Assembly (NCBI GenBank): GCA_007922225.1
Contig: ML679958.1
Coordinates: forward strand, 55,942,838-56,006,837
DNA from: Emydura subglobosa
Taxonomy: Eukaryota; Chordata; Testudines; Chelidae
Direction of reading: 5' to 3'
DNA length: 64,000 nucleotides
Positions 39,301 to 59,651 of this stretch are shown here, in pieces; within the stretch, counting starts at the first letter, position 1, and every line of letters begins with the position of its first letter. The notes beneath the pieces are model-generated. The model had not been told where the DNA came from. It saw only the letters and a list, made by a program, of their open reading frames with translations, and did not search any database. Both the position numbers and the translations under genes were made by a program.

Positions 39301-41575
39301 AATCATTATGATACTGTCACCATTTTTCTTATTTAAATTAGGACAGGTAAAATCCACGATATTTTCTCCCCCTTTCTGCCTGATTTTCAGCTGCATGGCT
39401 AAATGCTGTCTCTGGTGCTGATTTTCTTATATGGACTAGAACAGCTTGGAAATCTCTTGTATCAACATGGTTTCATCTTTGTGAGTGGCTATATTGACTA
39501 TAGTTAGGTTAAACCTTATTGATCTTGATAAGAATTGGCACTTCATAGTGCTTGAAAAGCAAAATAAATAACTGTTAATCTATTGGGACATCAGCTGCAC
39601 TGTTACATTATGGAAGATACAGTCTTGCCCCCCTCCTTTCAATGTGGATGGCTTGGATGTAGCTAGAAGTGCTCATGGTTTCTAAGGAAGGGCACTAGCA
39701 TCCCCATTTGATGATCCTCAGATTGATATTGACTTCAATATGTGGCTATAATTTATAATGGGACACATCACAAGATCATGGTCATTGTCTGAAAATGTGA
39801 CAGTTGTAGGCTGTCCCATTAATTGTCCTTGAAGACCAACAGTAAGATAAAAGTAGCATCAAAAGTAGGTATTAAGTCTTAATGTTAAAGTTCATAATAA
39901 AGGCTGTACTTTTAGATATGGGTAGATAAAAGTTTTTCAGTGCCTTTTATTCTGAGGTCCAGATACAGTAATTTGGGCTTCCAAAGATGCTACTTTCATT
40001 TAAAATGTGAAAATACCTAGATACAAATGCTTTAAAGTGGAGTATTCCAGTTTCTCCCTCCCCGTGTGTAAAACTAGTCAAAGTTCTATCAAATTTTATC
40101 CATAAGAAAGTGTGCAAAGAGCATATAATTAAATAAAAAATTAAAAGTTAAAATATATATGATAGAGCTTTGTTTTGTAAATGTGCGTGTGATACTCCAC
40201 TCATTTTCAGCTGTGTGAGATGGGACCTTTTAACTATAGCTTGTTCTAATGATTGTTTTTCAGTTATGCATGTACTGAATGATTCTGTCCTTTTCTGAAT
40301 TGAGTAAGAAGTTTGGGGAGAAATGTATTAAAATTCTACTAAAATATTGTTTTTTCATTGCTTTTGGTTTTTCTTGGTTGAAAAATATAAATAATAGATG
40401 TGAAATAGAGCAATATTTTGTTGTTTCATATAGGCATTTTTGCTTGAAGTGTTTTTTTTCCTCAGATGAAAAGAGATAGTGATGAAGAAACAGAGGAAGA
40501 GAAGCCCCCTAAAGTTAAAAAGAGAAGCCCTTATGGAGAGTGGCAGGAAGTTAAACAAGAAACTGATGTTGCGCAGGAAGAGGCCGTGTTAGTTCCACAA
40601 GATACCTCCCACAAAGTATCTAAAAAGACAACTCCTTATGGAAATTGGGAGGCAGTTACAGAAAAGGAAGATCCATAGTAAGTGTCCATTTATCGTAAGT
40701 ATTTATAAGATATCTATCACCTTGCTATACCAGAGGCCCTATACTATAGCGCCAAAAACTGCATTCCTCACTCAGGCAGTGTTAACACTCATGTCAGTGG
40801 GAGTTTAGCCTCAGAAAAGACTCAAGGATTTTACCAATGGTGAGTATTTAAAAAGTAGTTTTGATTCTTTTTTTAATGCTGAAATAATCAAAGGTAAACT
40901 TCACAAATTGCTGGTGACTTAGTGGATGGTTGTTTTCGATGGATCTAGCATTCAGATGCCATGGACCAGATCTGTAAGTGTGGTTTTGTAGGCACCATTC
41001 TGGGTGTGAATGAAAATTGGCATGCACACAATTTTTTTTACCTTTAAAAATTTGAGTAGCAATATTTACTATTATAGGACTTACATGAGCAACATGCTTA
41101 AGTGTTTACAGGACTGGGGTCTCAGTTTGCTACTTTTGTCTAAAACACCCTACCATTTGCCAGCTCACCCAGGGCACATAAAATATTTATTTTTTGCCAG
41201 ATTATCATGTTCCTGATAAGGATGGGCTAGTAGACTTTGAACCCAGGTTATAAAATTTCATAATGATTTTGTAGGGCTGCTATGAAAATAAAAATGCTGT
41301 CTGCATTCTGTGTTGCAACTCCTGTTCTTGTCATCTAACAGTTATTTTTTTTAACCTCCACTCCTAGTGCAAAAGTGGACTTGGAGCTTCCCAGTACAGA
41401 GAGTGACTGTCTACCTCTACCAGTGCTCCAGGTTCCAGAGGATGCAAAAGTGATATTTAAAGAAAAAACAGTCACCTCCCTGGGAGACCTGACGGAAGGG
41501 GTACCAATCTTCAAAAAGAGAAAATTTGAAAATGGAAAATCTAGAAACTTACGACAAAGACCAAGTGATCAGTAA
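12345..41575 (+). CDS. WBP4: WBP4 (FBP21), WW domain-binding protein 4, complete coding gene in 10 exons
   Basis: Spliceosome-associated protein of the U2/pre-catalytic complexes; its WW domains bind proline-rich splicing factors in the nucleus (family knowledge). Joining exons 12345-12346, 19638-19710, 21618-21680, 21780-21903, 22694-22864, 23923-23978, 26536-26602, 37761-37924, 40466-40677 and 41368-41575 gives 1140 nt, 379 residues plus stop, near the roughly 376 of human. All junctions have GT/AG sites and compatible phases. Visible parts: U1-type C2H2 finger (C13, C16, H30, H36) after [12 protein letters not shown]; Lys/Glu-rich helix to about residue 113; WW1 with W126 and W148 around YYYN; WW2 with W167 and W189, again with YYYN; acidic low-complexity region; twin PYGxW motifs (PYGEW, PYGNW); C-terminal basic tail ending NLRQRPSDQ. 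The start codon is split AT|G across intron 1. No frame damage seen. Confidence 0.96.
12700..13600. other. WBP4 intron 1, nothing recognised
   Basis: Single-copy-looking AT-rich sequence without sites I can support. Confidence 0.5.
13600..14700. repeat. dispersed repeat, LTR-like, copy 1
   Basis: The part from about 14055 to 14690 is colinear with 51905-52560: shared GGTCACTCTG, TAGTAAAGGAATTTCTTA-like and CCACAGTCA, TCCTTGGGGTTGGGCCA / TCCTTGGGTTGGGCCA, and GATGGCTTCTCA in order. No coding capacity. Length and AT-rich end suggest an LTR, but ends were not fixed. Confidence 0.6.
15089..15345. repeat. inverted-repeat MITE-like element
   Basis: CAATCCCACAAATAGCTAAG with GCATGTGCTTAAC at the left; GGGACTACTTAGTGCATATA and GAGCATGTATATACG at the right read as imperfect inverted halves. 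Confidence 0.5.
15450..15620. repeat. GGTGAAATCCTGG-type palindromic repeat
   Basis: GGTGAAATCCTGGCTCCATG and TTCAATGGGGCCAAGATTTC form imperfect inverted halves around TTGTCATTGACTTCAATGG, a frequent reptile MITE pattern. Confidence 0.55.
16194..18185 (-). pseudogene. CR1 ORF2, reverse transcriptase portion
   Basis: Uninterrupted 663-codon stretch with all RT blocks, including FADD, and the C-terminal CR1 domain up to the stop at 16194. It belongs to the longer ORF2 that starts near 19070, so as a protein it lacks the endonuclease because of the upstream TAG codons. Confidence 0.9.
18195..19070 (-). pseudogene. CR1 ORF2, endonuclease portion broken by in-frame TAG codons
   Basis: Same frame as the RT part. 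Segments 19070-18831, 18803-18600 and 18530-18195 read as APE-type endonuclease, separated by TAG codons. No frameshift is present. Confidence 0.88.
19611..19637 (+). repeat. (TTTA)5 microsatellite forming the WBP4 exon 2 acceptor tract
   Basis: Five TTTA units (19611-19630), then TTTTTAG, preceded by a CT-rich run (about 19588-19609). It is directly at the splice site that supplies the last base of the start codon. Confidence 0.9.
19638..19710 (+). CDS. WBP4: WBP4 exon 2: start methionine and zinc-finger cysteines
   Basis: Codes residues 1-25 together with the two bases of exon 1. It contains both finger cysteines (C13, C16). The acceptor TTTTTAG ends at 19637 and is preceded by a (TTTA)n run; the donor is GTATGT at 19711. 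Phase 0 exit after Lys-Pro. Confidence 0.93.
20068..20557. mobile_element. AT-rich non-autonomous hAT-like element
   Basis: Flanked by a perfect 8-bp duplication CCTTGAAG (20060-20067 and 20558-20565). Imperfect inverted ends: CAGGGTTGGCAA with GTAAATACC inside, and GGTAAATACCATG...ATCCTTG at the right. Confidence 0.7.
20570..21610. other. WBP4 intron 2, nothing further recognised
   Basis: No exon or clear repeat between the hAT element and exon 3. Confidence 0.5.
21618..21680 (+). CDS. WBP4: WBP4 exon 3: zinc-finger histidines
   Basis: Codes residues 26-46 beginning [15 protein letters not shown], which supplies H30 and H36 of the U1-type finger. Acceptor TTTAAG, donor GTAATT. It is followed by a very short intron of 99 bp. 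Confidence 0.94.
21780..21903 (+). CDS. WBP4: WBP4 exon 4: charged helical segment
   Basis: Codes residues 47-87, beginning [19 protein letters not shown] and ending LKRLGVKS, a Lys/Glu/Ala-rich stretch predicted helical. Acceptor TTGTAG, donor GTAGTT (weak). Exit in phase 1. Confidence 0.93.
22694..22864 (+). CDS. WBP4: WBP4 exon 5: Lys-rich linker and most of WW1
   Basis: Residues 88-144. A Lys/Glu-rich run (about 98-113) resembling a nuclear localisation signal is followed by [16 protein letters not shown], the first half of WW1 with W126. Acceptor CTTAAG, donor GTAAAT, phase 1 exit. Confidence 0.93.
23634..23745. repeat. palindromic MITE-like repeat
   Basis: CATACCCTTACTCCAC (about 23648) is mirrored by GTGGAGTAAGGGAATACC (about 23705), within WBP4 intron 5. 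Confidence 0.5.
23923..23978 (+). CDS. WBP4: WBP4 exon 6: end of WW1
   Basis: Completes the split Glu codon, then [10 protein letters not shown], carrying the second WW tryptophan (W148) and the closing proline. Acceptor TTTTAAG, donor GTAATC, phase 0 exit after Met163. Confidence 0.92.
23980..26530. other. WBP4 intron 6, mostly unrecognised
   Basis: Apart from the repeat at 24905-25030 only short low-complexity runs (TATA-rich at 25840-25860) are seen. Confidence 0.5.
24905..25030. repeat. dispersed repeat with GACAAGCTTTTGAGCTAC motif
   Basis: ACAAGGTGGGTGAGATAATC, TTTTATTCAACTAACTTCTG and GACAAGCTTTTGAGCTACAC form a pattern I associate with a widespread reptile SINE-like repeat. The name is not certain. 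Confidence 0.4.
26536..26602 (+). CDS. WBP4: WBP4 exon 7: first half of WW2
   Basis: Residues 164-185, [18 protein letters not shown] and on, with W167. Acceptor CATTAG, donor GTAAGC, phase 1 exit. The intron that follows is 11.2 kb and stuffed with transposable elements. Confidence 0.93.
27035..28620 (-). mobile_element. L2-clade LINE, minus strand, degenerate
   Basis: On the minus strand the pieces read [49 protein letters not shown] and [11 protein letters not shown] in L2 RT order. The 3' tail at about 27050-27140 (minus: GCATCTAGCACAATAAGG) is typical of L2/CR1-like elements. Several frameshifts and stops. It sits in WBP4 intron 7. Confidence 0.75.
29338..29672 (+). repeat. 5' LTR of the gypsy element
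   Basis: Pairs with 34031-34375: shared GGGAGGCCATGCAGAGCC, GCTGTGGAGAATAGG, CTATTTAA and CTTGCCTCCTG in the same order. A CTATTTAA box and a CTCTGAT-CAGCCA motif are the likely promoter. Edges are approximate. Confidence 0.8.
29936..30760 (+). pseudogene. gypsy gag remnant
   Basis: Fragments such as [40 protein letters not shown] and [15 protein letters not shown] lie in different frames. The knuckle region (about 30680-30730) no longer has a full CCHC pattern. Confidence 0.75.
30925..31240 (+). pseudogene. gypsy protease remnant
   Basis: Reads [15 protein letters not shown] followed by a stop, then [18 protein letters not shown] and [11 protein letters not shown]. The expected Asp-Ser-Gly active site is Asn-Ser-Arg, so catalytic residues are lost as well as the frame. 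Confidence 0.7.
31430..32120 (+). pseudogene. gypsy reverse transcriptase remnant
   Basis: Fragments: a YDLxP-like opening region at 31440-31620; then, after a frame change, [20 protein letters not shown]; then [13 protein letters not shown] with the catalytic FDD pair, and [20 protein letters not shown]. Broken by at least two frameshifts between 31620 and 31860. Confidence 0.82.
32698..33513 (+). pseudogene. gypsy integrase, longest open part of the element
   Basis: 271 codons open. Shows the His/Cys finger ([10 protein letters not shown] ... CDLC) and the catalytic core with Asp in LTLDFLVEL, Asp in [10 protein letters not shown] and Glu in [10 protein letters not shown], so the DDE triad is still readable. 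The frame is lost after HRLDLMN, before the chromodomain. Confidence 0.85.
33690..33990 (+). pseudogene. gypsy integrase C-terminus and chromodomain remnant
   Basis: Shows [20 protein letters not shown], then [10 protein letters not shown] and, after a frame change, [19 protein letters not shown], the W-E-P pattern of a chromodomain. This places the element with the chromovirus-like gypsy group. Confidence 0.7.
34031..34375 (+). repeat. 3' LTR of the gypsy element
   Basis: Begins TGATGTAGGGAC directly after a purine-rich tract and matches the 5' copy through to CTTGCCTCCTG. Contains a CCTATTTAA TATA-like box. Confidence 0.8.
34376..35980. other. WBP4 intron 7 between gypsy and hAT elements
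   Basis: 34820-35060 shows weak inverted symmetry (CTTGTGTACACTTG; CCATTGATAACAATGG) like a decayed MITE. Nothing else supported. Confidence 0.4.
35993..36329. mobile_element. non-autonomous hAT element with 8-bp target duplication
   Basis: Inverted ends CAGTGGTTCTCAACCT and GAGAACCCCTG. Flanked by ATCTAAAG (35985-35992) and TTCTAAAG (36330-36337), an 8-bp duplication with one mismatch, the hAT length. Confidence 0.85.
36340..36538 (-). mobile_element. Cry-type SINE with a full fold-back (inverted) duplication
   Basis: The minus-strand head reads GTAGCCGTGTTAGTCTGTAT and then GACTAACAAATTTAA, the cryptodiran tRNA-derived SINE. The body is present twice head to head: 36341-36412 and 36426-36502 are reverse complements with a 13-nt loop between them. 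The whole unit is bracketed by one target duplication, CTGTTCTAAAGAA (36327-36339) and CTGTTTTAAAGAA (36539-36551). Confidence 0.85.
36555..37750. other. WBP4 intron 7, last part, nothing recognised
   Basis: AT-rich, no clear repeat before exon 8. Confidence 0.5.
37761..37924 (+). CDS. WBP4: WBP4 exon 8: end of WW2 and acidic region
   Basis: Codes [10 protein letters not shown] (W189, closing WW2) followed by a Ser/Asp/Glu-rich tract ending KRKTDFK. Acceptor GAACAG with a poor pyrimidine tract, donor GTAAGT. It begins in phase 1, fitting exon 7. Confidence 0.9.
38100..39350 (-). repeat. LTR-like block, minus strand
   Basis: Minus-strand reading gives CCAAT-type boxes (plus: CTGATTGGTTGC, GACCAATCAG), a TATATAAGG-like box and AATAAAGAGACATTTTG at about 38255. 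That order suits U3-R-U5. Ends and target duplication are not established. Confidence 0.4.
39360..40460. other. WBP4 intron 8, nothing recognised
   Basis: No supported exon or repeat between the LTR-like block and exon 9. Confidence 0.5.
40466..40677 (+). CDS. WBP4: WBP4 exon 9: PYGEW/PYGNW repeat region
   Basis: Residues 241-310. Two copies of a KKxxPYGxW motif ([12 protein letters not shown] and [12 protein letters not shown]) about 36 residues apart. Acceptor CCTCAG, donor GTAAGT at 40678. Reading through the donor meets a TAG, so the splice is needed to continue. Confidence 0.93.
41368..41575 (+). CDS. WBP4: WBP4 exon 10: C-terminal exon with stop
   Basis: Completes a Tyr codon, then [14 protein letters not shown] and on to the conserved [14 protein letters not shown] and [17 protein letters not shown], with TAA at 41573-41575. 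Acceptor CTCCTAG. Confidence 0.95.
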
Positions 41576-47009: not shown

Positions 47010-47153
47010 AATGTGGTTGGGTTTTGTTGTAGTTACTGCTTAGCAACATCCAAAGTATATATTGGAAAGGATGTTTTTCATGGAACAGATTATCATGAAG
47101 TTGTCTTGACAGTTATTGATCTTCTGGATGAGAAACAACTCAGAAACATTAAG
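47010..47153 (+). CDS. death-domain gene, exon A
   Basis: Open frame NVVGFCCSYCLATSKVY and on to DLLDEKQLRNIK, donor GTTAAG at 47154, phase 0 exit. Two acceptors are possible: TTTTAACAG ending at 47009 (better pyrimidine tract) or TTGTTGTAG ending at 47032, which would remove the first residues. Function unknown. Confidence 0.55.
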
Positions 47154-50100
47154 GTTAAGAATTTTAATAAGATGGGTAATACAAGCAAATATTTTTATCA
47201 AGTTTCTTTTAAAAAGAAAATCCTGGTAGTAAACCTGTTTGGGAATTTCTTTTACAGAAAGCAGAGCCACCTGCTCACCCGGACAAGGAGGACAGAAAAA
47301 CTAAGGTAAGGTCCAAGCAAACAGTTTTTTGAATATGAAATTTTGTTTATCATCATTCGGGGGAAGTTATTTCTGGCAGTTAACTGTATTTCTACTTCAG
47401 GAAACATTCATAATCCTAAAAATACTGATGACACTGATCAATACAGACTTAAGCCAAAGAAACAAACTTCATTTTTGTAATTGGTTATAAGAATAACTTG
47501 TTGGTATTCTAAGTGACTGAATTCATTCATAGCTTCAGGATCACTGAGAATTTTGTTGATACATTTTATGAATGATGAAATGAAAGCCGGATTTTTATTA
47601 AGACTGATATTTTCTATTGGTCTAGAAAAAAAATCTGTATTTCCACTGTCTGGCCCATAACTTAGTTATGCCTAATGGTTTTTCTATTACATGTATTTCT
47701 TCCTAAACTTATGTTTAATCCATGCACATAAGATATATATATATAATTTAACAATGCTATAAAAGTACTGTCATACTTAGAGGTATGAGAAGTCAGAGAT
47801 TTTAACATGTCTTACAGTGCTGTTTCACTTAGGAATAATGTTGCTAAGCTACAAATGGAGTATTGTCCTATTCTAGAAGTCAGAGGACAGAGGAGATAGG
47901 ATCAGAATGATTAATATTCATGTTTCTTTAAAATATGGACATGGACATGGACATGGACATATCTTACGTCACTAATCATCAACACATCAACCAAAAGCTC
48001 TAGATAATATATCTCCATGACAGATTCCTTTTATGAGTTCCCAGTGCACTGAAAGAAGTGTTCTGCTTCTGTCTGCTGGGATGTAAACCACAAAGAAAAG
48101 CCAGGTATGGAGAGTGAAATTTTCAGAGACACTGTGCTCTCTATAGCACACGCTAATAAACTGGCAACATTTGCCTGAAACATACTTATCCTGTGAGCAA
48201 GTGTTGATCCTGCTAAGAAAGCTGAGTCGTTGAGGCAGATGCCTTATATATAAGGGTCATGGGCATGGGAGCGACTCTGTAGAACAGAGGTTCTAGGGTG
48301 TGGGCTGAGAAGTCCTAAAGAGAGACAGCTTAAGTAGGACTTTGTGATCTTATTGTTAATTGATTTCTGTCAATAAATCTAAATCCAGGGAAGGTTGAAT
48401 TTGGACTCCATATAGTGTGCAGACTGTGTGCGCAGAGCCGTTTGACAAAGGTGCCTATTCACACACAACTAAAAATATTTAATGTGAATGTTTAGTCATA
48501 TAGGTGTTCAAAGTGGCTTCCTACTGGGCTCTATTTTGTACGTGCATAACTATGGACAACAGGTTTTGTTTGTTTTGTTCTTAATTTTCATTTATCATTT
48601 CAAGTGTTTATCAATACAATATTGGGGGCCTGGCTCAGAAAATCGCATTGTTCCATTACAGCAGTTAAGAGATTGTGTAACAGAAATGTCAGGAAACCTG
48701 AGCACAAGAAAAGAACTCTGCCCTCTCTTATTTCCTGCTCAGATCTGGCATGCTGAACAACTGATCAACTTTCACATGAGAAGTATCCCTGAGCCATCAG
48801 ATGGCCCAGTAGCCTGTATGAAGGCACCCTTAGATTTTGTCACCATGGTTTTCTTTTCCACAATGCATTACCCTCGATTTCCACCTATCATAGTTCAGGA
48901 CAGATCTGGACTTCAACAGCAATAAAGACAGCCAGAAGCATTGACACCCCTATATAACAGGACTTTTTGCGTATTATCTACTGCTGATTTGCATTTCTTG
49001 GCTTTTCCAGGTCAGTTAGAAGAGCTGATGCAGTTTGAACAGTAAATGCCATAGTCATGTAAGATACTTTTGTAAAGTAATGTGTGAAATATAATTATTG
49101 AGAAAAATACTGTTGCATTATATCTATCTGAAAATACTTATTTATCTTTCTCATTGCCATCCTGATAGCTGTAAAGTAAAGAAGTTTTGCCAGATGTTCT
49201 AGTGGAATCTACATTAAAAATGCCAAATAAAGCCCAAGAGGTAAACAAAATGTACACTTAATCTTCAGATAAAGCGGGGGGGAGATGTTTGTTGTTTTTG
49301 TCACATGGAATTGTCTCTCAAAGTGTTTCAGAGAAGCCATTAATTTTAAAATAAAGATGCTTAAAAGGTTATATCTGTCTTATCCATATTCATGCACTTA
49401 AGGCTCCTAGAAATGGAAAATAGTGCCTTGGATGTCTAGGCACTACAGTAATGGAGTACTGTCAAACAGGTAAATTGAGAAGGATCTTGGTGACTTACAA
49501 AGCATTACTAGTGCCTGAAAAACATATTTGCCTCTTAAACTAATTAGCATATCTAATTTTTTAATAAATATGAATGTTAACAGTTTTTAATTCTCTTAGT
49601 AAAATTGCATGTGGTAACTATAAACAAGATGCTGAATACTAGATAAAAAGTTATTTATTTATATTATAATAGCATCCAAAATGGACGAAGTGCTGTAAAA
49701 ATATGAAGAAACAGCCATAATAAAGTGCTTGCATTATAAAAAGAAACATACAAAATCAACATGTAAGTCCATGGGGGAGGATCACGGTAGTGTCAGAGGA
49801 CACTTCCATGGCAACCAACTGGTATAATGGCTTGTACCCCAGAGTAGGAGGGTTGGCCAACCAAAAAAAGATATGATTAAGGTTCACATAACAATCTCTT
49901 GAAGCCATTGGCAAGTAGTGTGATTTAGCACAGCCTAAGATCAGGCAAATGCAGAAGTAGCTTAAAGGGTACATGGTCAAAGGACACATCTACGTTGGAG
50001 ATGGAGCTGTAATTTCCGGTTCAGGTAGCTTTGATCAAGTGAGCACACTAAGAATAGAAGTGTAGCTGTGGCAGCGCAAGGGGCGGAATGGGCTACCTGC

Positions 50101-53100
50101 CCCAAGTGCATGCCTAGGGTTTCAGATGGGATCATATTCAGGTGGATGGGCTCTCATGACGGCGTGGCTACACTTCTATTCTTAGTGTGCTAGCTCAATC
50201 AGATCTACCTGCTTTGGAAATTACACCTCCAGCTCCAATGTAGACATACTCAAAGATGAATTGTTTTACCACATGATTCCACATTTTATCAAATATGTAC
50301 CACCACCATGTATGTAATATTTGTGCACATCTATTTGCCTATAATTATATGTATATAAATCCTTCAAGGGTTTTTATTACTGTTATTTGTGTTGTGGTCC
50401 GACCTAGGACACTAGTCATAGACCAAGACCCCATTATACTAGACACTTTACACATAACATAAAGAAGATCCATTCTTTACTTGAATATGTATATGTTATA
50501 GAATCATCATAGAAATGTGCTAGAAAGGATCTCAAGAGATCATCTAGTCCATCCCATTGTACTGGGGCAGGACCCAGCATACCTAGATCATATCTGAAAG
50601 GGTTTGTCCAACCTGTTCTTGAAAACCTCCAATGTTGGAGATTCCACAGCCTCCCTTGGAAGCCTGTTCCAGTGCTTGACTACTCTTAGAGTTAGAAAGT
50701 TGTTCCTAATATCTGGCCTAAATCTCCATTGCTGCAGAGTAAGTTGATTATTTCTTATCCTACCTTTAGTGAACATGGAGAACAATTGATCACCATTCTC
50801 TTTATAACGTATTTGAAGAATGTTTATTCTGTTATCAGGTCCCCCCTCAGTCATCTTTTCTCAAGACTAAACATGGCCAGTGTTTTAACCTTTCCGCATA
50901 GGTCAGGTTTTCTACACCTTTTATAATTTTTGTTGCTCGCCTTTGGACTATCTCCAATATGTCCACATCTTTTTTTAAAATGTGGCACCCAAAATTGGAA
51001 ACAGTACTCCAGCTGAGGCCTCACCAGTGCTGAGTAGACTGGAACAATTACCTCACATCTTCCATACGATACTCCTGTTAATATATGCCAGAATGATATT
51101 AGCTTTCTTCACAACTGCATCAAATCGTTGTCTCATATTCAATTTGTGATCCATTATACCCACAAAATCACTTTCAGTAGTATACCCTCTAGCTAGTTAT
51201 TCCTCATTTTTTAGTTTTGCATTTGATTTTTTTTCTTCCTAAGTGTAGTACTTTGCATTTCTCTTTATTTCATAACTTTCTTTTCAATGAATTAAACAAT
51301 GTGAATTTGTTTGATCACTAGGATGCTGTGATTAACCTGAAATCAGTACAAGAACTGGGTAAGCAACTGGGTTTTGAGTGGACAATAGTTGCTAATGAGC
51401 TGGGATTCAGCAGAGCAGAAATAAGTCAGTTTCACTCAGCTACCACAGAGAAGAAGATTCAAGCGCAAAAAATGCTGGAATGTTGGTAAGTAGCTCAAGG
51501 TGAGAGAGGAGTGCAAAGTCCCTCATCCTTTCAAATAAATAGCTTTATTCATCATTTTATATTCATCGACATTTCACAGTTAAGATAGCCCTGGTCTAGT
51601 AGGCTACTTTTAGATTATTCCTATTTTTCTTATCTCTTCCAAAAGAAATGTATATATGATACTTGTCACAGTCTGGCCCAATACTCTTCTGTATGGTCAG
51701 CAGTCTGTTGCAAGTAAACCCATTTGTTGGGTCCCGTGTGCATCCAAGCCAAATGGGTCTGGGTAGAGTCTTGTCACTGTTTCTAGTTATGAGACTAAAG
51801 GGCACACTCCTAGGCTCAGATCTGACACCCTTCTTCTAAGGGACTGATGCCCAGCTTTCCTAGACCCTGAAATCAGTGTCTGAGATCTCTCAATCCCCCT
51901 CCACGAGGTTGCCTATACATACTTTCCCAGAATCCCACCTAGGCTGAGGTCACTCTGAGTTCCTAATTTAACTTATTTGGGGACAATATGGCAGGAACTC
52001 AAGAAACGCCAGCTTAGTAAAGGAATTTCTTAGCCACAGTCATTTACTCTTACTTAAACTACTTAAGAGTTACAAATTTTTGAAAAGAGGATAACTCCTG
52101 GGACACATCCTCCCCTGGTCTGATCTCACAGAATCTGTTAGTCCCAGGTTTGTCAGCATTTGAGGCTGGGCAGAGTTCCCCTTGCATGCTTTCTCCTTCA
52201 TGTCCTCCTTACATGTGGCAATGGTCAGTCCTCCTGCACAGAGCAGAACATTGTTCTTAAGTAGGTTGCTCCTGTGCTATGTGTTCCACTGGAACGATCC
52301 AGCCTGCTTCCCCAGTCATGTTTGCCCTACTTGTGTAGAAAAAAATTGATCCTTGGGTTGGGCCAATAGTTGAGATAATCAAAGTCGATCACCCTAGACT
52401 GCAGCCTTGATGGCTTCTCAATGAAACATCCAGTACCTTTTCCAGGTAAGGCAGCTGTCTCGTATGCAATACAATAGATAGATTAGTATAGATATGTTCA
52501 ATACATAACACAAATGGAGTTCATCCTTTGATACAGACACAATGCCAAAATGTTCATTACAGTTTAAGTGAGAATTGTAGCAGCAAAACTTCGGCATGCC
52601 CAAGAGGAGAGAGAAATGTTTTCAGAGTAAAAATGAGACAGTTGAGTTGTGTGCCGCATGAACAAATTCCTCTTTAAAATTATTTGTCATTTTTCCACCT
52701 TTATTATTGTTTCTGTAGCACTCTAAATGTGCACTTTTCTGTACAGGAGGTAAACTGTCAGACAAATAATGGTGCCTGCCCAACAGAGATGAAAAGTATA
52801 ACTATATACAAGTACAACATTTCTAGCTTTGTATTCTTACACACCCCTGGATGGTATAATCTGATATGAAGTGAACTGTTGTAATGATCTTTAATCCCTG
52901 TCCAATCAACCAGCCACCCAAAGAAATTTGGTGGATATTTTCAATATATTAGATTTTTGCAGTCACTGAAATAACCTTTATTGCTAAAGACATCTTCCTG
53001 GATCCCTCTGTAATATTGAGTGCTATGAACCATTTTGTACAGAATATTAGTTCAAACAATCTCAAATGATTGTGTCTGGCCCTTGCTTGCGGGCACAAGA

Positions 53101-56100
53101 ATGCTCCTATTGCACCAATAATTCCTTCCCCCAGGGAAGTCCCTGAAATCCTGGGTTCAAGAACTGCTCCCTGCTACTACTGCCCATAACTATACACAAC
53201 CGCACCTGCTCCAAAAGAGATAAGAAAAGATGTTGATGAGGTGAGTTATTGTCCCCCATCTTCTGCACACCAATGAACAGAGCATCTAGCTGGGAAACAG
53301 TGCACACTGCTGACTATAAACCCACTTATTCTGGTCTAGTGTGTTCATCATAGCAATGCACCCTCGTACTAACTTTCAGATACCTAGTAGAGAAGAGTGG
53401 AGGAAAGAGGAAGAGGCAGAAAGGAAAAGAGAGGGATAGGAAATAAAAAATGAACAAACAGAAGCATGGATGGATCTCTAAAATCTTATTAGCTTTGTTA
53501 TGGTGTTTTTCATTGGGACTGAAATACAACAGCAGACTGAATAATCCAAAAATCAGAACCAGAGACTTCAGAAATAGATATTTTGCTTTAGATTTACAAA
53601 AGAGAGTGAAGATCTGTCCAAGACAGGAATTTTGTTTCCTGAGAATCAACAGGAGTTAAAGTGGGAAGATCATTATAGGACTGTTCTCAGTAGTGGAAGA
53701 TGACAGTACAAGGAACAATGGTCTCAAGTTGCAGTGGGAGAGGTCTAGGTTGGATATTAGTGTGACGTTCCCCTCTGCAAGCTGGACTGGTATATCGCTG
53801 TATCACCCCAATGCCCCACTCCTGGAGCGCATCTCACTCTGCTTTGCTGTGTGAATCCCTACGCCTGTGCAACTCATGCACAGCCACCAGCAAGCAAGTT
53901 GTCCCCCCGACTCAGTGAATGAGTGCCTCTAGTCAGCCACTTCTGGGATTATGCAATGGTTTGCCCCCCTCTCCCCCCCTCCAATATCCCCAGTCCCAGA
54001 TGCAACACTAGGAACTGCCATCTTACAGAGGTCAGTGCTGCCCACTGGGCTCTGCAAGCTTATATGTTCGTCAGTTAATCAAAGAAATTGATATGCACCA
54101 GCTCTGTCACTTTAAATGAAGTCTCTACACGCACCCAAACCACATACAGTGCTTTAGATAAAACAAACAAGTATATTAAATAAAGAAAAATTTTAAGTGA
54201 TTATAAGCCAGAAGAAGGGAGGTCAGATTTAATCAAAAATAAAAGGCAAATTGCATTCTAAACTAAGCTTAACACTTTTAGCAATCTTACAGTCTTAGAT
54301 GGTACTCACCACAGGCTGATTGGTTGGCCTCCAACCAGGCTCCCCTGTGGTCAATGCTTCAGTTTTTTTATATTGTCCATAGCAGGATTGCAAGAGTGAG
54401 AGAGACCCCAAAATGTCCCCCTTTTTGAAATGCCCCTGTGTCCCCCTCTGGGGCCTCACCTCTGCACTTCAGGGTCAGGTGACCAACAGTATTCCTGCAT
54501 GGTCTTCTCCGCATCCTGAGTCAAAGAGCATCACCTTATCAGATGCTTAGGCCAGTCTGTTGTTCCTGGAAGAGCTGGGTTGTTTTATGCATGCCTTGGT
54601 AAGGTGTGAATTACCTCTCTGCTTTTAGTGTTTGCCTGGATCTACTTCAAGCCATGTGAGACACATATTTGGGAATATTACATAGCGGAGCTTCTTAACT
54701 GTACATATGACACTGCAGAAAACATACTATCATAACAATAATGTTCAGTATGTCATGAGCATTCCAAAAACACCTTATATGACATATTTTGGATTAAACA
54801 ATACACATTTACACTATAAGGATGAACATGAATGATATACAATCATACCATGAGGGTGTACATAGTTGGGGTTGGTCCTACTTTGAACAGGGCGTTGGAC
54901 TAGATGACCTGACCTTCTGAGGTCCCTTCCAATCCTAATCTTCTATGATTCTATGACTGTCAGCCTGATAGAAGTCTCGCACAAGATAATGGGATGCCTG
55001 AGATGGGACTCGATTAATAAAGAATTAAAGAAGGGTAATGTAATTAATGCAACATGGGTTTATGAAAAATAGATCCTGCCAAACTAACCTGATATCTTTT
55101 TGGTGAGATTACAAGTTTGGTTGATAATAGTGTTGACTAAAATAGACTTCTGTAAAGTGGTTGATTTAGTACCACACAGCATTTTGATTAAAAAAGTAGA
55201 ATGATATAAAATTACCATGGCACACATTAAATGGATTAAAAACTGGTTAGCTGATAGGTATCAAAATGTAATTGTAAACATGTAATCATCATTGAGTGGG
55301 TATGTTTCTAGTGGAGTCCTGCAAGTATCATTTCTTGGCCCTACACCATTTAAGATTTTTCTCAGTGACTTGGAAGAAAACATAATATCATCACTGATAA
55401 AGTTTACGGATGACACAAAAAGGGGGGGAGTGGTAAAAATGAAGAGAATAAATCACTGATTCAGAGTAATCTGACTCACGTGTTAAATGGGGGGGAGGGG
55501 CAATCAAACAATATGCATTTTAATACAGCTAAATGTAAATGTATACATATAGGAACAAAGAATGTGGGCCATACTTACATATTAGGGAACTCTGTCCTGA
55601 GAAACAGTGACTGAAAAAGATTTGGGGATCATGGTGGTTAATCAGCTGAAAATGAGCTCTCAATGTCATGCCGTGGCCAAAAGAGCTAATACAATCATAA
55701 ACGGGAATCTCAAGTAGAAGTAAATAGATCATTTTACCTCTGTATCTGTTAATGGTGCGAGTGGTACTAGAATGCTGTGTCCAGTTCATGCCCACAACTC
55801 AAGAAGAATGTTGATAAATTGGAGAGGGTTCCGAGAAGAGTCACAGAAATGACTAAAGGATTAGAAAACATGCCTTATAGTGATAGAATTAAAGGGTGTC
55901 TACACTACAATAAAACACCCATGGCTGGCCTTTGTCAGCTAAGTTGAGCTCTTGGGGCTGGGGCTTGGGCTGTGGGACTATAAAATGGCAAGTGTAGACA
56001 TTGGGACCCCACAGAGCCCTAGCTCAAGCCCAAATGTCTGTACAGCAATTTTATAGCCCCATAGCCCAAACACTTGAGAGCCTGAGTCAGCTGACATGGG

Positions 56101-57785
56101 CCAGCCACAGGTGTTGTACTGCAGTGTAAATATACCCGAAGAGCTCAATCTGTTTATTTTAACAAAGAGAAGATGAAGAGAAGATTGACTACAGTCTACA
56201 AGTATCTACCTGGGTAACAAATATTTAATAATGGGCTCTTCAATTTAGCAAAGATATGACACAATCCAATGGCTGGAAGTTGAGGCTAGACAAATTCAGA
56301 CTGGAAAGAAGGCATACATTTTTGACAGTGAGGGTAATTAATCATTGCAACAATTTACCAAGGGTCATGATGGATTCTACATCTCTGATGATTTTTAAAT
56401 CAAGATTGGATGTTTATCTAAAAATATGCTCTAGAAATTTGAGGGAGGGGGTAAGTTCTATGGTATGTGTTATACAGGAGGTCAAACTAGATGATCACAA
56501 ATGGTCATTTCTGGACTTGGAATTTCTGGAAAAACATTGACTAATAATGATTACCATTGTTATACCATAATACAAAGTCTGGATCATATACTGAGGTGGT
56601 GAAATTTACTGACCTCCTGAATCCCCCTCTCCATTGGGCAGAATCCTCTAGCCATACCACCCTGCGACAGGGCAGAAGCTCAGAGTTCCCCACCCCAGTC
56701 TGCTACGCAGAGAATGGGGCCGGGGGAGCAGAGGGGGCTCCGCAAGCCTCATTTTAACTGTGAAAGAACTGCATGCAGCTCACGAGCCACAGTTTGGCCT
56801 CCCCTGTTATATACAGTCATGAGTATTGAAGAAAGTGAGAGAGTGGGTGGTAAAGCAGGTATTTGATCTGTTTGTTGCAATTTTTATTTTACAGGCAAAC
56901 AAACTATAAGGCATTAAGGATTACTGTACAAATTAAACCAAAGTACTGTACTGTACCGGCTTTGTTCTACAAGGATACAATGAGCAACTGTATTGTCTCT
57001 ATGGTGTATTTGCTGCCTTTATAATAGTCACTTTTCTTTCCCTTTTGACACTGAGTTGTCATTAATACTATTCTCATAAATAGGTTTAGAATAATATCCA
57101 TCTAAGGACTATTTCTTGGTAGTGACTATTTTCACAAGTGCTGAGCATCCAGCAGCTTCCTAAAATCAGGCCCTGTTTAAAGTACTTAAATGTAGACTGA
57201 AGAGCCTAAATTTAGGATACCCAAATATTGGCCTAGGTAAATTAGGACCTATAAGTCACAACTGGTACAGGTTCACCAGTGTTGATTTTCCTATTACAAG
57301 TGCAGCCCAAGGGGCTTAGACTATCTTGCTACAGTGTCCCTGCTGTTATCCTCCATTGCAATCCTAGGGTGGATAGTAGAAGCTAGAAGGAAAATAAGGT
57401 CTCAGAGTATCTTGTCTTTTGGGGGAGGTGTGTGTGTGTATTTTTATAAAATATGGCATAGCAGTTGGTACACTTCAAGTACAAATGGAGATGACGTATA
57501 TTGTATGTTGACTGATCATGCTGCTGTAATGTTTATTGCAACAAATGCAGGTATGAACGATCATGGAATAAACTTAATAAGACAAAGCTCCTTCAGGATG
57601 CCCTGGAACGGGCTGGAAGAAAAGACCTGGCTGATAAACTACGGTGCCTGCACTGGGGACATCAGAAGTTAAGCAGCAGAGTGGAGCTCCCTTCTGCTTT
57701 CCCCTTTCTCATCACAGTGCACAAAACTATCAACAACAAAGAAGGGCTTAAGAAAATTAATGAACTTAGTCGCAAGTATCCCTAA
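47010..57785 (+). CDS. unnamed death-domain protein gene, 3' part (four exons, 5' end not found)
   Basis: Exons 47010-47153, 47258-47305, 51322-51485 and 57551-57785 have GT/AG junctions and compatible phases. They join into 196 residues ending RKYP-stop. The third and fourth exons together encode a six-helix death-domain pattern: LKSVQELGKQLGFEWTIVA, then ELGFSRAEISQF, a conserved central Trp (ECWYERSWN), and LLQDALERAGRKDLADKL. Death domains recruit signalling partners in apoptosis and NF-kB pathways, so an adaptor or receptor-tail role is inferred only. A tail of about 40 residues follows the domain. The first two exons give CLATSKVYIGKDVFHGTDY and a short Lys/Glu/Pro linker of unknown fold. 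No initiator Met is in exon A, so upstream exons are missing from my reading. I do not recognise an ortholog between human WBP4 and MTRF1. It could be CRADD-like or a lineage gene; decay upstream is possible. Confidence 0.72.
47258..47305 (+). CDS. death-domain gene, exon B (16-codon linker)
   Basis: Acceptor TTTTACAG, donor GTAAGG. Encodes KAEPPAHPDKEDRKTK, a charged, proline-containing linker. Enters and leaves in phase 0, matching exons A and C. Confidence 0.65.
47310..49160. other. intron of the death-domain gene, nothing firm
   Basis: Holds the GGACAT repeat and a 145-codon frame at 48488-48925 without any recognisable domain. Confidence 0.45.
47937..47960 (+). repeat. (GGACAT)4 tandem repeat
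   Basis: Four perfect hexamer units in the intron after death-domain exon B. Confidence 0.85.
49984..50251. mobile_element. palindromic MITE with about 80-bp inverted arms
   Basis: The left arm (ACGTTGGAGATGGAGCTGTA ... CACACTAAGAATAGAAGTGT) is mirrored by the right arm (ACACTTCTATTCTTAGTGTG ... CCTCCAGCTCCAATGTAGAC). The short centre (50080-50155) is unique. It lies in the intron before death-domain exon C. Confidence 0.85.
50505..51250 (-). mobile_element. CR1 LINE fragment, minus strand, 3' part
   Basis: The CR1 3' signature near 50510-50560 is followed on the minus strand by the CR1 C-terminus (RPDIRNNFLTLRVVKHWNRL, then REAVESPTLEVFKNRLD). Truncated at its 5' side, it ends about 70 bp before exon C of the death-domain gene. 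Confidence 0.88.
51322..51485 (+). CDS. death-domain gene, exon C (first helices of the death domain)
   Basis: Acceptor ATCACTAG, donor GTAAGT. Encodes DAVINLKSVQELGKQLGFEW through KIQAQKMLEC, with the final Trp codon split TG|G. It lies only about 70 bp downstream of a truncated CR1 element. Confidence 0.78.
51600..52620. repeat. dispersed repeat, LTR-like, copy 2
   Basis: Colinear with copy 1 at 13.6-14.7 kb, same orientation, clearly diverged. Located in the last intron of the death-domain gene, just after exon C. Confidence 0.6.
52625..53660. other. intron of the death-domain gene, nothing recognised
   Basis: Sequence between the LTR-like copy 2 and the CR1 3' end; no supported feature. 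Confidence 0.45.
53665..54956 (+). mobile_element. CR1 LINE 3' end, plus strand, split by a later insertion
   Basis: 53665-53758 matches the CR1 C-terminal region (GGTCTCAAGTTGCAGTGGGA, GGTTGGATATTAG). The very 3' end resumes at about 54850 (GTTGGACTAGATGACCT, CTATGATTCTATGA). The intervening 1.09 kb is foreign. Confidence 0.82.
53759..54850. repeat. 1.09-kb insertion inside a CR1, LTR-like
   Basis: It begins TGTGACGTTCCC and ends near CATACCA, has no open reading frame, and includes an AATAAA near 54180. Size and TG...CA ends suggest a solo LTR, but no target duplication was established and some CR1 sequence is missing at the site. Confidence 0.4.
54956..56535 (+). mobile_element. degenerate CR1/L3-type LINE, plus strand
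   Basis: Reading in pieces gives HGFMKNRSCQTNL (about 55046), KFTDDTKR (about 55402) and, at 56256-56420, RLDKFRLERRHTFLTVRVIN with NNLPRVMMDS, i.e. CR1 RT blocks and C-terminus in order. Frameshifts and stops throughout. It is interrupted at 55893-56138 by a palindromic MITE. Confidence 0.82.
55893..56138. mobile_element. palindromic hAT-like MITE inside the LINE
   Basis: The ends are inverted repeats: GTGTCTACACTACAATAAAA and GGCTGGCC at the left, GGCCAGCC and GCAGTGTAAATATACCC at the right, with further inner symmetry (AGCTAAGTTGAGC, GAGTCAGCT). The LINE reading resumes directly after it. Confidence 0.8.
56540..57545. other. intron of the death-domain gene, nothing recognised
   Basis: No repeat boundary or exon before exon D. 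Confidence 0.45.
57551..57785 (+). CDS. death-domain gene, exon D (last helices, tail and stop)
   Basis: Acceptor AATGCAG. Completes Trp, then YERSWNKLNKTKLLQDALER and GRKDLADKLRCL (helices 5 and 6), and a tail VELPSAFPFLITVHKTINN to ELSRKYP and TAA at 57783-57785. No AATAAA is evident soon after the stop. Confidence 0.78.
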
Positions 57786-59546: not shown

Positions 59547-59651
59547 TCAAGATTTAAAGTTTTCTAAATGTTGTATTAGGGCCTCCATCTCTGCAGACTC
59601 CAATAACCTGTTGATTAGCTCATCCAGTGCCCCCTCCCCACAGAGAAATTC
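59547..59651 (-). CDS. MTRF1: MTRF1 last exon with stop
   Basis: Acceptor TTTGATAG on the minus strand, 34 codons EFLCGEGALDELINRLLESA to HLENFKS, TGA at plus-strand 59547-59549. Confidence 0.93.
   Translation of the reverse strand, partial: EFLCGEGALDELINRLLESAEMEALIQHLENFKS

Follow-up and report, generated by a model that had tools for sequence, protein, structure and literature searches.

The stretch of the Emydura subglobosa genome analysed here (64,000 nucleotides of contig ML679958.1, in the following called the window) carries, between WBP4 and MTRF1, an intact and selected gene encoding a small death-domain protein, and its structure, family, single copy, and conservation are established. 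It is a turtle member of a jawed-vertebrate family that is already catalogued but little studied, and it is almost certainly the ortholog of zebrafish wu:fc50b12, a catalogued but uncharacterized gene. Three exons on the plus strand form a frame of 139 amino acids, comprising an N-terminal MPNKAQE, one death domain, and a tail of 45 residues. By analogy with other single-domain members of the death fold, this wu:fc50b12 ortholog probably serves as a small death-domain adaptor or decoy, a reading to which we assign a probability of roughly 60%.

Gene structure and the encoded protein

The initial annotation had described four plus-strand exons joining into a C-terminal death domain. Its last two exons (coding exons 2 and 3 in Table 1) are base-exact. 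Upstream of them, its model passes directly from 47305 to 51322 and overlooks the start exon (ATGCCAAATAAAGCCCAAGAG followed by gt), because this exon holds just 21 coding bases. Sixteen codons upstream of the ATG at 49220, the frame is closed by a TAA stop, and the 139-amino acid frame is complete. A Pfam scan of the translated exons, a profile search against death-fold families that the initial annotation had suggested, found the death domain PF00531 (42.9 bits, E 5.6e-11, cut-off 22.6) and nothing else above cut-off, that is, no enzyme or other recognized domain. The protein belongs to the proteins with a death-fold helical bundle. Genome searches, which covered the 1.93 Gb assembly, identified a single copy with two exon matches at the locus; the next best match was the death domain of THOC1 (E 0.039).

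Identity and distribution of the family

The protein cluster search (query, the 196-amino acid protein of the initial annotation; E <= 1) returned 101 clusters, 10 of them unnamed; clusters conceal members at 90% identity. The named rows cover sharks, rays, chimaera, ray-finned fish, coelacanth, lungfish, frogs, squamates, platypus, opossum, and one turtle (Pelodiscus), whose protein is the nearest match to that of the window. In the databases, these relatives are called uncharacterized protein wu:fc50b12, p53-induced death domain-containing protein 1, or THO complex subunit 1 or 1-like. The gene is therefore neither unnamed nor reptile-specific, as had been proposed, since it is catalogued as wu:fc50b12, though uncharacterized, and sharks and fish carry it too. 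The initial annotation would have given way to a clear match with an already named gene at this locus; such a match was obtained in a weak sense only, wu:fc50b12 being a clone-derived name without a function.

The turtle protein agrees with the family in length (139 amino acids; 135-141 in 38 of 40 aligned rows) and in its start, which is exactly MPNKAQE in 18 of the 40 aligned homologs and has the same pattern and length in 39. It also contains the family's tail motif LHWGHQKLS-RVELPSAFPF, and its exon borders, before DAVIN and inside W62, are those of the family. P0114 and P0117, two unnamed single-exon sequences, stop at the same W as coding exon 2, and the similarity of platypus P0110 and the unnamed P0109 is lost at the same RYE border as that of coding exon 3; P0110 is the only one of these four with a species name. 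No notable difference between the family and the turtle gene was found; the turtle copy is placed between WBP4 and MTRF1.

A tree was built from 27 rows, namely the window protein, the Pelodiscus protein after trimming, and 25 of the remaining 100 clusters. Its grouping of cartilaginous fish, ray-finned fish, frogs, and squamates is by and large the expected one. Several of the deep forks are poorly supported (stars mark 6 of the 24 inner branches), and the lungfish stands among the ray-finned fish. The profile search, which scored only those 7996 candidates that had the most words in common with the query, yielded 119 rows, and the last-exon search 39 rows from 40 candidates. No row named as bird, crocodile, or placental mammal appeared in the cluster, profile, or last-exon searches, 10 clusters being unnamed. 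These missing rows are weak evidence, because clusters hide members, some rows are unnamed, and Pelodiscus is the sole turtle row even though Emydura clearly carries the gene. The earlier suggestion of a loss in mammals seems nearly correct for placentals, for which there is no row, but platypus and opossum retain the gene. As to relatives among invertebrates or lampreys, the profile search lists, after 118 rows of the family (E up to 3.4e-16), one unnamed death-domain protein at E 0.026, for which no relation is claimed.

The clone name fc50b12 is absent from the main text of the literature searched. Nothing on the gene was found in literature on death domains with WBP4 or MTRF1, as judged by title and the start of the abstract, nor by title among the matches listed for PIDD1 or the PIDDosome in zebrafish or in literature on death domains only. 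Listings and abstract starts on placental gene loss with death domains likewise held nothing on the gene; the match on gene loss concerned caspase-16.

Conservation of the tail and the proposed function

Of the regions compared, the core of the tail is the most conserved. Among 81 homologs, the most frequent residue of a column reaches on average 0.93 across the 27 columns of the tail core and 0.85 across the tail as a whole, compared with 0.77 in the death domain (81 columns) and 0.84 in its second half. Ten tail residues (H96, W97, G98, Q100, L102, S103, E107, F112, P113, and T121) are present in 100% of these homologs. The stronger constraint on the core than on the death domain suggests that the core forms a main binding surface. 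In both structure models, the predicted local distance difference test score (pLDDT) of the tail is <50 over much of its length, with short helices. Tail-like sequences elsewhere in the genome, L012 (41% over 54 columns) and L013 (36% over 61), contain one stop each and look like chance matches.

Taken by itself, the mechanism of an adaptor or decoy has about even odds. The death domain would attach to another assembly of death domains or cap it, as happens with CARD-only and pyrin-only proteins in their own assemblies, and a second partner, always the same one, would be recruited or blocked by the tail. A single fixed partner of the tail would account for a tail core more constrained than the domain. 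The role of the protein may be one of inhibition or of bridging. CARD-only and pyrin-only proteins (PMC3775265, PMC10803020) are built as a lone death-fold domain, and pyrin-only proteins are reported to inhibit inflammasome filaments (PMC10803020). The turtle protein is like them in that it is small and has one lone death-fold domain and no effector domain; it differs in subfamily, having a death domain instead of a CARD or PYD. These proteins are also not known to have a long conserved tail, which the turtle protein has.

Several points weigh against an adaptor or decoy. The assignment is an analogy from architecture, and conservation throughout jawed vertebrates is higher than a simple decoy would lead one to expect; in evolutionary terms, CARD-only and pyrin-only proteins are young. 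Furthermore, the tail taken whole and the second half of the domain hardly differ in conservation (0.85 and 0.84), and the core alone stands out. The low-pLDDT tail could also fold back on the death domain.

The depth of the family, from sharks to opossum, the conserved tail, and the possible placental loss are its striking features. As a tentative view, which we hold to be rather doubtful, the gene may encode a death-domain signalling protein little changed since the jawed-vertebrate ancestor, with a tail partner unlike that of any known death-domain protein, which was lost towards placentals and perhaps a second time in birds and crocodiles. If this were true, placental mammals may have lost a regulator of cell death or immunity. 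Death-domain proteins are usually catalogued from human and mouse, and such a loss would mean that human-centred maps of cell death miss a whole branch of PIDD1-type signalling.

Relation to PIDD1 and THOC1

The foremost alternative, which we regard as unlikely, is that the protein is a part or regulator of the PIDDosome. In this view, it would be related to the PIDD1 death domain but stand alone, bind CRADD (or RIPK1), and modulate caspase-2 or NF-kB signalling. By profile, no death domain comes closer than that of PIDD1, either in the PDB (44.8 bits, followed by THOC1 with 37) or among the 20 domains from this genome that were scored (39.9 vs 33.6), and PIDD1 is also the closest in a structural second look. 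The alignment with PIDD1 continues beyond helix 6 and takes in the start of the tail (LELGRRK / LHWGHQK). However, the intron in the death domain of turtle PIDD1 (AG/G, Arg) lies 14 codons before that of the wu:fc50b12-type gene (TG/G, Trp), and the turtle PIDD1 exons thus rule out an intron shared at the same Trp codon. Foldseek with the coelacanth model ranked THOC1 over PIDD1, and no joint clade with PIDD1 was recovered. In the tree of 20 turtle death domains and eight family rows, the family is one clade (98/92), whose nearest kin is not settled. The 20 domains are 19 of 27 Pfam matches plus PIDD1; the eight matches omitted are exon fragments. Judged by eye, some of these fragments are presumably ankyrins, and the CRADD label in the tree is likewise our assignment by eye. 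A further sequence, L036, groups weakly with the family (90/64) on a long branch and was not used.

PIDD1 binds CRADD via its death domain, for which R815 of the human protein is required, and skipping of PIDD1 exon 15 leads to R759G and a stop, as stated in excerpts of PMC7791037. The residue aligned with R815 is A39 in the 139-amino acid protein; it decides nothing, because turtle PIDD1 itself has Q at this position. PIDD1 also has a leucine-rich part and undergoes self-cleavage according to the same excerpts (PMC7791037), whereas in the turtle protein the death domain alone exceeds the Pfam cut-off. Two features of PIDD1, leucine-rich and other upstream domains in the same protein and the position of the death-domain intron, are absent from the turtle gene, and a separate PIDD1 locus exists in this genome. 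A PIDDosome link would be the most testable form of the mechanism.

It is improbable that the gene encodes a nuclear THOC1-like factor acting in mRNA export or transcription and not in cell death. THOC1 gives the second-best profile match and the best Foldseek row (E 2.3e-4), and some homologs bear the name THO complex subunit 1 or 1-like; yet the only Pfam match above cut-off is the death domain, and a distinct THOC1 death domain, so named because it is nearly identical to the human THOC1 row, is located at C7:34.77 Mb. THOC1 is a chain of 657 residues in the THO complex, whereas the turtle protein has 139 residues and its own locus. The upstream domains of a full-length THO subunit are missing, PF00531 alone scoring above the Pfam cut-off.

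Many fish and reptile orthologs of the 139-residue gene are labelled PIDD1 or THOC1 in databases. This mislabelling may mislead expression studies in fish and reptiles.

Selection on the coding frame

In the 139-amino acid frame, 132 of 138 residues are identical between the Emydura window and Pelodiscus (codon 62, at which Pelodiscus has an insert, was excluded). Pooled upstream non-coding rows are identical at 47 of 72 positions, including 11 of the 14 residues just before the ATG (Fisher p 1.2e-8 vs the frame). Compared with the least similar upstream row (23/43), the p-value is 4.6e-10, and compared with the insert row (18/29), it is 4.3e-6. The Pelodiscus insert and the corresponding intron of the window are identical at 15 of 23 positions. 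From 132/138 vs 47/72 and 15/23, strong purifying selection on the protein is concluded, and none is visible upstream. The statement in the initial annotation that the domain looks selected rather than decayed holds, given the intact frame, the canonical borders, and this difference in identity. The Pelodiscus gene model P0001 (LOC102449690), with an insert of ~23 residues inside the death domain and a non-conserved N-terminus, looks faulty.

A decaying pseudogene or merely a non-coding transcript is accordingly very improbable, although the 101 clusters contain only one turtle protein row, windows of 400 bases across 40-59 kb showed no CpG island (observed/expected CpG at most 0.38), and the acceptor of the last exon is weak on a crude splice score, by which 287 of 1153 AG sites rank higher. 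Intact frame and canonical splice borders argue against it, as does the identity between the two turtles.

The proposed upstream exons

Exons 1 and 2 of the initial annotation join the following exons with AG/GT at all internal borders, phases 0, 0, and 2, and an open joint frame, as described. Both lie outside the conserved protein, and the N-terminal part of unrecognized fold ascribed to them is not part of it. More than 69% of the 196-amino acid query was aligned in 1 of the 101 clusters only, namely P0001, the one cluster to include the upstream region. The similarity of exon 1 to P0001 is split over two frames, one of which matches at 13 of 15 residues and the other at 23 of 43 columns; the latter match extends 36 bases beyond the proposed donor. 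The first 114 residues of the proposed frame contain no Met. With the seven AG acceptors in 49100-49220, none of the 14 joins tested from exon 1 or exons 1 and 2 to the start exon was open. On the crude splice score, 2 of 996 GT sites in 41-58 kb outscored the donor of exon 2, and 163 the weak donor of exon 1; this score carries little weight, because the confirmed acceptor of the last exon (57551) was also rated low. That exons 1 and 2 join in frame is due either to chance or to their being untranslated. The reading as a longer reptile protein that has an N-terminal region of its own is the least credible, since the resemblance of the N-terminal stretch of P0001 to part of exon 1 is set against the split frames, the overrun donor, the missing Met, and P0001 itself, which reads through MPNKAQE.

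Genomic context

The features of the locus are listed in Table 1. Both flanks match named proteins, in agreement with the initial placement of the gene between WBP4 (+) and MTRF1 (−). A frame with what we take by eye to be the GGQ motif of a release factor is located at ~65.0 kb, just past the window end. As far as tested, KBTBD6 and KBTBD7, which occupy this place in human according to the initial annotation, are absent, the longest listed frame in 40-64 kb having 148 amino acids. From 57.8 kb to 20 kb beyond the window end, no frame as large as a KBTBD gene is listed either, and the only frames of at least 150 amino acids have 151 and 153 and lie near 81-82 kb.

Table 1. Coordinates of the death-domain gene, its proposed upstream exons, and flanking features in the window
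Feature	Position	Strand	Remarks
Coding exon 1	49220-49240	+	ATG start, MPNKAQE; ends in phase 0 before GTAAAC; overlooked in the initial annotation
Coding exon 2 (initially exon 3)	51322-51485	+	D8 to W62 (ends after TG); first half of the death domain
Coding exon 3 (initially exon 4)	57551-57785	+	Rest of W62 to stop TAA; remaining death domain and conserved tail
Conserved C-terminal tail	57648-57782	+	Residues 95-139 (LHWGHQKLSSRVELPSAFPFLITVHKTINN...), 45 residues
Exon 1 of the initial annotation	47010-47153	+	Outside the conserved protein; possibly 5' untranslated, or no exon at all
Exon 2 of the initial annotation	47258-47305	+	Outside the conserved protein; candidate 5' untranslated exon, given its strong donor
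Intronic stretch like the Pelodiscus insert	53495-53581	+	Resembles the ~23-residue insert; no GT donor at the matching place
Left flank, open frame with WBP4 exon	40448-40678	+	Match to WW domain-binding protein 4, E 2.7e-5
Right flank, MTRF1 C-terminal coding exon	59550-59651	−	Match to mitochondrial release factor 1, E 1.9e-4

Within the introns, frames or end sequence at 50588-50860 (−) and 54849-54960 (+) presumably represent remains of CR1-type retrotransposons, judging from their likeness to such elements.
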